The position numbers and the translations under genes are program-made. DNA of 64,000 bases from Bogoriella caseilytica (GTDB lineage: Bacteria; Actinomycetota; Actinomycetes; Actinomycetales; Actinomycetaceae). Shown here piece after piece: positions 1,651 to 26,216 of the stretch (position 1 is the stretch's first letter; each line of letters opens with the position of its first letter). The notes under the pieces were generated by a model, which saw only the letters and a list, made by a program, of their open reading frames with translations, did not search any database and was not told where the DNA came from. The stretch spans positions 3,162,001 through 3,226,000 of the forward strand of contig NZ_RKHK01000001.1 of assembly GCF_003752405.1 (NCBI RefSeq), written 5' to 3'.

Positions 1651-1724
1651 GCGTTTGTGCTCACTCATCGTCGTTCCCAGGACCGTGGAGCGTGGCTATT
1701 CCGACGTCGAGTGAGCACAATCGC
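1651..1724. repeat. Palindromic intergenic repeat, copy 1 of 5
   Basis: The left arm reads GCGTTTGTGCTCACTCATCG and the right arm, read on the opposite strand, GCGATTGTGCTCACTCGACG. Outer 18-20 bp pair nearly perfectly around a variable centre. It lies between the convergent transglutaminase and aldo/keto reductase genes. The same arms recur at 6560, 7713, 24091 and 26079. Confidence 0.85.
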
Positions 1725-6559: not shown

Positions 6560-6633
6560 GCGGTTGTGCTCACTCCACGTCGTTATGAGCCGCCGTTCCC
6601 GGGTTCAAAACGACAGTAAGCGAGCACAATCGC
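6560..6633. repeat. Palindromic intergenic repeat, copy 2 of 5
   Basis: The left arm is GCGGTTGTGCTCACTCCACG and the right arm on the other strand GCGATTGTGCTCGCTTACTG. It lies in the divergent gap between pxpA and the DUF559 gene, just upstream of the latter. Copy 3 lies just downstream of the same gene. Confidence 0.85.
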
Positions 6634-6745
6634 CGAGTGGGTGGTGGAGGCGTCCTCGCCGGGGCCCGGGCGCCCGCCTCATCTCGAGCGATCGGTGTTG
6701 TGGATAACCCCCATGGCAGGGTCACGGGAAGCAGAATCGCGTGGC

Positions 6746-7675
6746 ATGAGAACACCGCGCCCCCTGCCCCACAGCCTGGAAGGACAGGCACTGACTCCGG
6801 GCGCGCTACGTGTTGCGGGCGTTGACCTCAACCGGCTGCGGCGACGGGACATCGCTCCCATCGCCCGCGGCATCAGGATGCAGCGCTCCCACATGCCCGT
6901 GCACGAGATCGAACGGCTTCGCCAGCGAGCGGTCCTCCTCGCGCGCGAGCGTGCCAACAGCTGGATCTCTCACCACACCGCCGCGATGCTGCGTGGCTGG
7001 TCGATACCAGGACGGCTACTGGATGCCAGGACCGTCCACCTCACCGTGCTCAAGGCTGCCGGCACATACTCCCGGCGCGATCAGGTGATGTGCCACCGCA
7101 CGACCCGGGCTCCACGGAACCTCGAGCGCTACGAGAACACACTGATCAGCTCACCGGCTTTGACGTGGCTCGAACTCGCCGGGGCGATGAGCATTGAGGA
7201 GCTGGTCATGCTCGGCGACCACATTGTGCGGCGGCCTTACCGGAGGTACGAGGGACGCTCCGAGCCGTGGACGACCCTCGCCTCCTTGCGCGACGTGGTG
7301 GACAGTGCCGCAGGGATGCACGGCGTCAAGCGGGCACGGGCAGCGGTCGATCAGGTGCGCATCGGAGCGGACTCGGCGCAGGAGACCGCACTGCGGCTGG
7401 CCCTGGTGAACGCAGGACTCCCGGAACCCGAGCTTCAGGTGCGCCCCGACGACGATCCGTGGTCACCACCGGCAGACCTCGGCTATCGCCGGCAACGCAT
7501 TGCCATCCAGTTCGACGGCGCCACGCACTTCGACCCCGAACGGGCGCGCCACGATCAACGCCGAGACAACGCCTTCACCTCGGCCCGCTGGTCCCTGCTG
7601 CGCTTCAACCGGGAGGACGCGCGCGACGGCTTCACCAGGGCGGTCGCCCAAGTGGGCCACTTGCTCGCATCCTGA
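6746..7675 (+). CDS. DUF559 / AbiEi-like endonuclease-domain protein
   Basis: A cytoplasmic protein of about 309 residues. The C-terminal ~100 residues match the DUF559 (Vsr/PD-(D/E)XK-like) pattern: PPADLGYRRQRIAIQFDG, then HFDPERARHDQRRDNAF and WSLLRFN. The N-terminal part (LNRLRRRDIAPIARGIRM, ISHHTAAMLRGW) resembles the AbiEi-type proteins that often carry this nuclease-like domain in actinobacteria. ATG 6746 is preferred; ATG 6713 is also in frame and neither has a strong ribosome site. The role is unknown; type IV toxin-antitoxin or DNA repair are family-level guesses. It stands alone and is bracketed by two copies of the palindromic repeat. Confidence 0.75.
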   Translation: MRTPRPLPHSLEGQALTPGALRVAGVDLNRLRRRDIAPIARGIRMQRSHMPVHEIERLRQRAVLLARERANSWISHHTAAMLRGWSIPGRLLDARTVHLTVLKAAGTYSRRDQVMCHRTTRAPRNLERYENTLISSPALTWLELAGAMSIEELVMLGDHIVRRPYRRYEGRSEPWTTLASLRDVVDSAAGMHGVKRARAAVDQVRIGADSAQETALRLALVNAGLPEPELQVRPDDDPWSPPADLGYRRQRIAIQFDGATHFDPERARHDQRRDNAFTSARWSLLRFNREDARDGFTRAVAQVGHLLAS

Positions 7676-7712
7676 CGGATCCACCGCTCATGAACCTCGG
7701 CGTCCGCCGAGA

Positions 7713-7784
7713 CGATTGTGCTCACTACACGTCGCTCTGGCAGGCCCGCGGGCCTGCCAGAGCGACATCGAGCGAGCACAATCG
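7713..7784. repeat. Palindromic intergenic repeat, copy 3 of 5 (near-perfect palindrome)
   Basis: This 72-bp copy is palindromic almost through its centre: CGATTGTGCTC at both ends, and the inner arms GTCGCTCTGGCAGGCCC and GGGCCTGCCAGAGCGAC pair perfectly. Only a few of 35 arm positions differ. It lies between two convergent genes (DUF559 and the ABC exporter), so it could also stop transcription on both strands. Confidence 0.9.
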
Positions 7785-21009: not shown

Positions 21010-23997
<2,988 letters not shown>

Positions 23998-24090: not shown

Positions 24091-24164
24091 GCGATTGTGC
24101 TCACGTCTCGTCGCTCTGCGGGGCGCCGCGGCCAATCAGAACGACTGAAGTCGTGCACAATCGC
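24091..24164. repeat. Palindromic intergenic repeat, copy 4 of 5
   Basis: The left arm is GCGATTGTGCTCACGTCTCG and the right arm on the other strand GCGATTGTGCACGACTTCAG, with inner CTCTG/CAGAA pairing. It lies upstream of uvrA and downstream of metS, between genes read in the same direction, so it is not simply a convergent terminator. Confidence 0.8.
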
Positions 24165-26078: not shown

Positions 26079-26152
26079 CGTTTGTGCTCACCTCGCGTCG
26101 TTCTGACGGGCCGACCCGGCATCCAGAGCGACATGAAGTGAGCACAATCGCG
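26079..26152. repeat. Palindromic intergenic repeat, copy 5 of 5
   Basis: The left arm is CTCGTTTGTGCTCACCTCGC and the right arm on the other strand CGCGATTGTGCTCACTTCAT, with inner GTCGTTCTG/CAGAGCGAC pairing. It sits in the divergent gap between the NSS transporter and the kinase gene and directly abuts a 22-bp tandem repeat. Confidence 0.85.
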
Positions 26153-26211
26153 GAGAGGGGCCGCCGGCAACGCGGAGAGGGGCCGCCGGCAACGCGGAGA
26201 GGGGCCGCCGG
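26150..26211 (+). repeat. 22-bp tandem repeat upstream of kinase gene
   Basis: The unit GCGGAGAGGGGCCGCCGG plus CAAC occurs twice in full (26150-26171, 26172-26193) and a third time in part (26194-26211). Each copy carries GGAGAGGGG, a Shine-Dalgarno-like run; the last lies about 12 bases before the first ATG of the next gene. Confidence 0.9.
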
Positions 26212-26216
26212 GCGCG

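Follow-up and report, generated by a model that had tools for sequence, protein, structure and literature searches.

Genome comparison identifies the DUF559 gene of the window, i.e. the whole 64,000-nucleotide stretch of DNA that was analysed, and the palindromes that bracket it as a cognate protein-repeat pair, in which the repeats are dispersed and of fixed length and, in one genus, the unit of gene and palindromes is present or absent as a whole. AbiEi-Vsr-type genes that stand next to or between copies of a private palindrome, one that is also scattered in the genomes examined, occur in many actinobacteria and look like an undescribed counterpart of a known repeat-enzyme system. We consider it probable that gene and palindromes work as one system, with the protein binding the palindrome and nicking or cutting there, followed by copying, moving or maintenance of the palindrome; binding, nicking, copying and a RAYT-like form of spreading are the steps that we infer.

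Palindromes in the window and its genome

The window contains 12 matches to ATTGTGCTCAC with at most one mismatch, compared with 0.51 expected, a number that none of 100 shuffles reaches. Five complete inverted pairs are present, each 66 bp long and running from TTGTG to CACAA (type C). The sequence-only reading had placed two of them around a DUF559 gene, an arrangement that is confirmed: its open frame, which with a GTG start begins at 6641, is immediately preceded by copy 2 and followed by copy 3. The features are as follows.

1655..1720, no strand: type-C palindrome copy 1, dispersed, far from the DUF559 gene
6564..6629, no strand: type-C palindrome copy 2, 66 bp, TTGTGCTCAC ... GCGAGCACAA, upstream bracket of the DUF559 gene
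6746..7675, plus strand: AbiEi-like and DUF559/Vsr-like nuclease gene, 309 codons from the ATG at 6746, stop at 7675
7716..7781, no strand: type-C palindrome copy 3, 66 bp, downstream bracket of the DUF559 gene
24095..24160, no strand: type-C palindrome copy 4, dispersed, one arm slightly altered (CGTGCACAA)
26082..26147, no strand: type-C palindrome copy 5, dispersed

The window genome (G000; 3,235,396 bases) holds at least 24 type-C copies including those of the window, 23 of them exactly 66 bp, the count being a lower bound made of elements that pass a filter on arm match. A genome-wide frame search of G000 found five DUF559 genes, all of which adjoin an inverted repeat, each of a different sequence and in three of the five cases on both sides. 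The closest paralogue (L067) encodes a protein 63% identical to that of the window and is bracketed by a palindrome of its own, type G (TTGTGGTCA...TGACCACAA), which is related to but distinct from type C, measures 65-66 bp and numbers 19 filtered copies in G000, one of which fits the two types equally well. The consensus sequences of types C and G differ at matching positions of both arms. An arm pattern that spans both types together, TTGTGSTCACNNNNCGYCG, has 56 matches in G000 with at most one mismatch, none for the reversed-pattern control, and 0-3 per genome in the other 60 of the 61 family genomes searched; at three mismatches the separation in G000 is poor (179 matches versus 99 in the control).

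With respect to predicted genes, 38 of the 43 type-C and type-G copies in G000 are intergenic, 18 of them between tandem, 15 between convergent and five between divergent genes; a simple ORF rule puts four of the 43 within a frame, and one is unplaced. That copies 4 and 5 stand beside other genes, as remarked earlier, fits a repeat most copies of which lie in ordinary intergenic space. Among the G000 copies the middle of neither type has covariation beyond column expectation; because it pairs no better than the columns predict, a double-strand binding site is favoured over a hairpin. A reading of the repeat as an RNA family was rejected, no Rfam match at gathering score being found in window positions 1-30000.

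Two further observations concern the surroundings of the repeats. A lone arm, TTGTGCTCGC, lies at window positions 23957-23966, 138 bp before copy 4 and without a partner arm, and is perhaps the remnant of an older element. Short tandem repeats adjoin some palindromes (e.g. window 26149-26214). They occur within 20 bp of 21/43 elements in G000 versus 58/665 intergenic windows, of 8/31 versus 86/631 in G040 (weak, p=0.07), of 0/13 versus 40/367 in G009 and of 1/9 versus 0/43 in G254; a trace of breakage or slippage at the G000 palindromes is possible. Since the association is strong in G000, weak in G040 and absent in G009, it is kept out of the argument.

The DUF559 protein

Pfam PF04480 (DUF559) scores 20.1 bits in the window protein (E=0.0006), just below the cut-off of 20.6, and in the genome-wide frame search the frame lies above the cut-off at 21.5 bits. 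An AlphaFold model was examined (mean pLDDT 75, pTM 0.72), with residues counted from the second codon (6749). In this predicted model residues 55-204 resemble AbiEi (6y8q; Z 9.2, rmsd 3.6 over 129 aligned), and a Vsr-like fold follows in residues 205-308, with matches to I-Bth0305I (3r3p; Z 10.8) and to Vsr with DNA (1cw0; Z 9.7); TnsA is a weak match (Z 6.8). These fold assignments rest on VIA-align Z values, Foldseek alone giving no match for the model at E<=0.001.

Profile searches on 22 members of the group found DUF559 and MTES_1575 in all 22, AbiEi_4 in 12 (the window protein not among them), DUF2726 and FANC_SAP in single members, and no Pfam match to a Y1 transposase. The PADLOC AbiEi models match up to 19/22 members, the window protein weakly (E=0.0016). 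The window protein is thus predicted, from its modelled fold, to be an AbiEi-like plus Vsr-like nuclease and not an HUH transposase. Residues E212 and D243 are invariant in 102/102 proteins, whereas position 254, in an ExD motif, is E in 74, Q in 27 including the window protein and H in one; given the Q for E in the window protein and 26 others, catalysis may be altered in these. Pfam assigns the four window neighbour genes to LamB/YcsF, two ABC transporters and a carboxyltransferase, with no AbiEii toxin gene among the four scanned. Across the order, 136 of 297 genomes have a match to the window protein, with as many as five found in one genome.

Palindromes beside DUF559 genes

PF04480 occurs at 54 places in 28 of the 61 family genomes. 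With one place left out because it adjoins the end of a contig, 53 were analysed together with flanks of up to 8 kb on either side, and other ORFs of the same stretches served as controls. As the sequence-only reading anticipated for a gene that acts on the repeats, palindromes are enriched beside DUF559 genes: 39/53 of them have an inverted repeat scoring 22 bits or more at a distance of no more than 300 bp, versus 45/276 control ORFs (p=4e-16). The corresponding counts are 25/53 versus 18/276 upstream, 27/53 versus 31/276 downstream and, at 30 bits or more, 22/53 versus 18/276. Half of the 14 family genes without a nearby repeat of at least 22 bits (7/14) are frames of fewer than 200 aa. In a wider survey, 20/29 order-wide relatives, these being the best match per genome to the window protein, have an inverted repeat of at least 22 bits no more than 400 bp before or 300 bp after the gene. 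Among full-length relatives from named genomes, which include Georgenia, Cellulomonas, Actinomyces, Williamsia, Demequina, Pseudoclavibacter and Tessaracoccus, 24/29 have an inverted repeat of this strength (16/21 after dropping eight already counted), elements of up to 120 bp being covered in this and the family survey and longer ones cut or missed. More distant DUF559 genes, in which the match covers the C-terminal half only, have one in 3/24 cases.

The two flanks of a gene also tend to match each other. They are alike at E<1e-4 in 21/53 family genes and 8/29 named relatives, compared with 11/268 control ORFs and 1/24 distant DUF559 genes. Inverted repeats of at least 20 bits stand on both sides of 33/103 non-duplicate genes, and for 27 of these 33 the best match of the upstream palindrome among the 33 downstream ones is that of its own gene, with a mean own-pair score of 36.6 versus 7.7, a result not equalled in any of 10,000 permutations; in the other six the gene's own two palindromes are not each other's best match.

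These results bear on two alternatives. According to the first, which had also been raised from the sequence alone, the gene is a bystander that came to lie between two palindromes by chance, the palindromes being terminators or repeats moved by another enzyme. Several copies do stand after gene ends, and copies 4 and 5 flank other genes, but the enrichment, the privately matched pairs and the presence or absence of the unit as a whole (below) do not bear the idea out, and we regard it as very improbable. According to the second, the protein is an AbiEi-type repressor that regulates its own gene through the palindrome, the scattered copies serve other genes as operators and so define a regulon, and the nuclease has another purpose. 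AbiEi proteins are described as regulating their own expression via inverted repeats in the promoter (PMC7319586), with which the upstream palindromes in 25/53 genes agree. The downstream palindromes in 27/53 genes and the matched pairs on both sides in 27/33 are less readily accommodated, as is the preponderance of convergent (15) and tandem (18) over divergent (5) placements among the 38 intergenic G000 copies, and with the data on G254 described below we consider a regulon unlikely.

Some features of individual elements may be recorded here. L091 (in G017) is a DUF559 gene without a strong palindrome and has a flanking direct repeat of 112 bp at 95.5% identity. A loop core like TTTTGAG, GTTTGAG or TTATGAG recurs in L227, L231, L232, L242 and window copy 2, the stems of which differ, and it may be that this shared loop motif is read by a conserved part of the protein. 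In long elements of 100-120 bp (L086, L087, L179, L090 and related ones) a core resembling CCGCATGATTTC or CCGCGGAATC recurs in the inner part in different genera.

Dispersed repeats of fixed length in other genomes

Dispersal at set length is not confined to the window genome. Arm matches number 54 in G009 and 119 in G040 (reversed-pattern control 0), and the compared stretches of the two hold 44 complete elements with 102-105 bp between CGCA and TGCG. In G254 all nine copies measure 63 bp (control 0), and across these copies and the cassette loci described below the arms are kept while the loops drift. Actinomyces sp. ZJ308 has 13 pairs and A. israelii 18, 28 of the 31 being exactly 120 bp and the rest 119-122 bp (control 0 in both genomes); a five-base block of the arm differs between the two species and varies little within either. 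Several G254 copies lie a few bases past the ends of predicted frames, a position that argues against operators of a regulon.

Solo copies were compared between G009 (13) and G040 (31). Many flanks are unalignable, and most of the other copies are common to both genomes. One G040 copy, at B55765, is a candidate absence in G009, its flanks having about 30 bp that are repeat-like and single in G009; this flank repeat is not clean enough to count as a target duplication, and those of the other candidate empty solo sites of the pair that were followed up were either not borne out or likewise not clean. At the solo site L250 of G254 no polymorphism was found among the 14 of 30 loci that were read, the six nearest all carrying a copy, including that of G374, which lacks the cassette, and the other eight being without a matching right flank. 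The palindrome at this site is slightly altered in both arms in G374 (L344), which is without the cassette at the usual site, and likewise in G379 (L348), which has it.

Presence and absence of the unit in one genus

The gene adjoining the G254 cassette was found in all 41 genomes of the genus, and 30 loci were read. Ten have the order palindrome-gene-palindrome, and 20 have neither gene nor palindromes at this place. Ten of the 20 empty sites retain the downstream neighbour, which in L318 nearly abuts the upstream gene; in the stretches of the other 10 no such neighbour was found, and these sites are therefore not strictly comparable. Two empty sites, L320 and L332, keep arm-like scars, which are half-arms and not full palindromes; losses have therefore happened, and presence versus absence need not mean gain. 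The cassette sites are too diverged to show a target-site duplication.

With at most one mismatch allowed, genomes of this genus have between 0 and 129 arms each (control 0-1). All 10 cassette genomes have at least 15, compared with a median of five in the 20 without a cassette at the usual site (p=0.007), and the 11 genomes outside the 30 loci read have none, except two with three and nine. Among the 61 family genomes the repeats of the window are confined to their own. The expectation that repeats would not abound without the gene is partly contradicted by the G254 genus, in which 8/20 genomes without the cassette at the usual site keep 14-76 arms, so that the repeats can be abundant without a gene at that site. 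In these eight genomes the gene may sit elsewhere, or the repeats may persist after its loss. Of three stretches with arms in G064, which belongs to the eight, two are without a related gene, and in the third a relative of 50% identity lies about 1.25 kb away from a single arm.

Several explanations have to be weighed against these data. The span from 0 to 129 arms within a single genus is a further point against a regulon. The same variation in copy number counts against a role in genome marking or defence, in which the nuclease would recognise self, or structural sites, by the palindromes and act on invading DNA or on the structure of the chromosome, with the repeats kept by selection rather than by self-copying. 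With such a role would agree the retention of the arms while loops drift, and also the PADLOC matches at E<=0.1 among the 22 members (AbiEi 19, Hhe 15, HEase 13 and PDC-S37 11), but no defence partner is present among the four window neighbour genes, and marking or defence seems to us slightly less likely still than a regulon. A selfish cassette of homing type, which would spread as a unit with its palindromes and leave solo palindromes as scars where it was lost, is suggested by I-Bth0305I being the closest fold (Z 10.8), by the all-or-none cassette and by the arm-like scars at two empty sites. These scars are, however, half-arms rather than full palindromes, the solo copies are numerous and of exact length, and in 10 species the cassette occupies a single conserved locus, a pattern suggestive of vertical descent; we therefore hold homing to be improbable, although not to the degree of a chance bystander.

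Joint change of arms and protein

L231 and L232 are orthologous loci from two species of a single genus, and their outer flanks have 87% and 95% identity. Within the gene the nuclease-encoding last part is 89% identical at the nucleotide level, whereas the first 62% is only 69% identical, and all four arms differ between the two species, having taken on a common new sequence, one of them imperfectly. That both palindromes change with the N-terminal part of the protein is difficult to account for if the gene is a bystander.

In G009 and G040, ACGT in one corresponds to ATGC in the other in both arms of both gene-flanking palindromes, and one orthologous solo copy with a nearly identical middle has the same ACGT to ATGC change. 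Both arm types are scattered in both genomes, so that the change is not genome-wide, and the N and C parts of the gene have diverged to the same extent (75 and 76%). Three Georgenia pairs have identities of 76/80, 69/78 and 77/77% for the N and C parts. Among the pairs with changed arms the N part thus falls below the C part by 20 points in L231/L232 and by 9, 4, 1 and 0 points in the others, compared with -2 to +6 points in control pairs with unchanged arms. Stronger divergence of the N part was rejected as a general rule, being unsupported beyond L231/L232. Joint change of the arms and the N-terminal part appears, from these alignments, in one clear case, to which the other pairs neither add nor from which they detract.

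Proposed mechanism and implications

The mechanism we favour for the combined system would begin with the N-terminal AbiEi-like region binding the inverted arms of its own palindrome family. The C-terminal Vsr-like domain would then nick or cut at or near the bound palindrome, and repair or replication across the nicked or cut site would copy, move or maintain it; the outcome would resemble a REPIN population served by a gene lying between two copies of the repeat. The sequence-only reading had proposed a RAYT-like mobiliser. The gene-palindrome link on which that proposal was built proved real, specific and widespread, but mobilisation by the protein is putative: the sequence comparisons revealed neither a new insertion or target-site duplication nor an excision product or cleavage. 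We are evenly balanced on a more specific version, i.e. that this is a REPIN-like class of actinobacterial repeats served by a non-HUH nuclease, with an AbiEi-type reader that co-evolves with the arms and a Vsr-type cutter.

Were this correct, bacterial genomes would contain a second kind of long-lived sequence population, of independent evolutionary origin and with natural swaps of specificity between a reader domain and its palindrome. A second, unrelated enzyme family with such repeats would permit independent tests of why these populations persist and of what the host gains, and a common protein family of unknown role would be given a function. Naturally paired domains and palindromes, such as types C and G in one genome and L231/L232, would be ready-made specificity experiments. 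A link between DUF559 and palindromes was not found among the listed titles and starts of abstracts of open-access PubMed Central papers. No known family that we considered has these parts together.

Comparison with known systems

The Vsr and DUF559 endonucleases, e.g. Vsr of Escherichia coli and VsrA of Caulobacter, resemble the window protein in the fold and acidic residues of the C-terminal domain. VsrA is itself described as a DUF559 protein, and in the available text of the source these enzymes are (predicted) mismatch-repair nucleases tied to cytosine methylation, with palindromes unmentioned there (PMC12907096).

The N-terminal region (residues 55-204) has the same predicted fold as the AbiEi antitoxins of the type IV AbiE system and Rv2827c. 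The DUF559 protein differs from these in its fused nuclease and in having repeats both on the two sides of the gene and scattered, and the AbiE system differs in its AbiEii toxin gene, which has no counterpart among the four window neighbours. I-Bth0305I, the best structural match of the nuclease domain, is a member of the EDxHD homing endonuclease family; the DUF559 gene differs in being free-standing between two palindromes. TnsA of Tn7 is a restriction-like nuclease that acts in transposition together with TnsB. It shares with the window protein the weak fold match given above and differs in that no partner gene is present among the window neighbours scanned.

The closest likeness in organisation is to the REP/REPIN repeats, in which short inverted arms, a spacer of set length, extragenic location and a nearby cognate gene are characteristic (PMC3116915, PMC3733652) and for which conservation of the arms and length of the spacer are reported to matter (PMC3116915). 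The palindromes described here likewise have conserved inverted arms of fixed length around a less conserved, variable middle, are dispersed in multiple copies, are mainly extragenic (position relative to genes being established in G000) and flank a cognate gene. They differ in that the GTAG tag of REP sequences is absent from the consensus of both type C and type G. The enzyme differs more deeply: RAYTs (TnpA-REP) are HUH Y1 proteins, whereas the DUF559 protein combines AbiEi-like and Vsr-like regions with no Y1 match. Since it is an AbiEi-Vsr-type fusion and not a RAYT, 'RAYT-like' is an analogy only; the apparent way of working seems to be that of REPINs and RAYTs, carried out by an enzyme unrelated to RAYTs.
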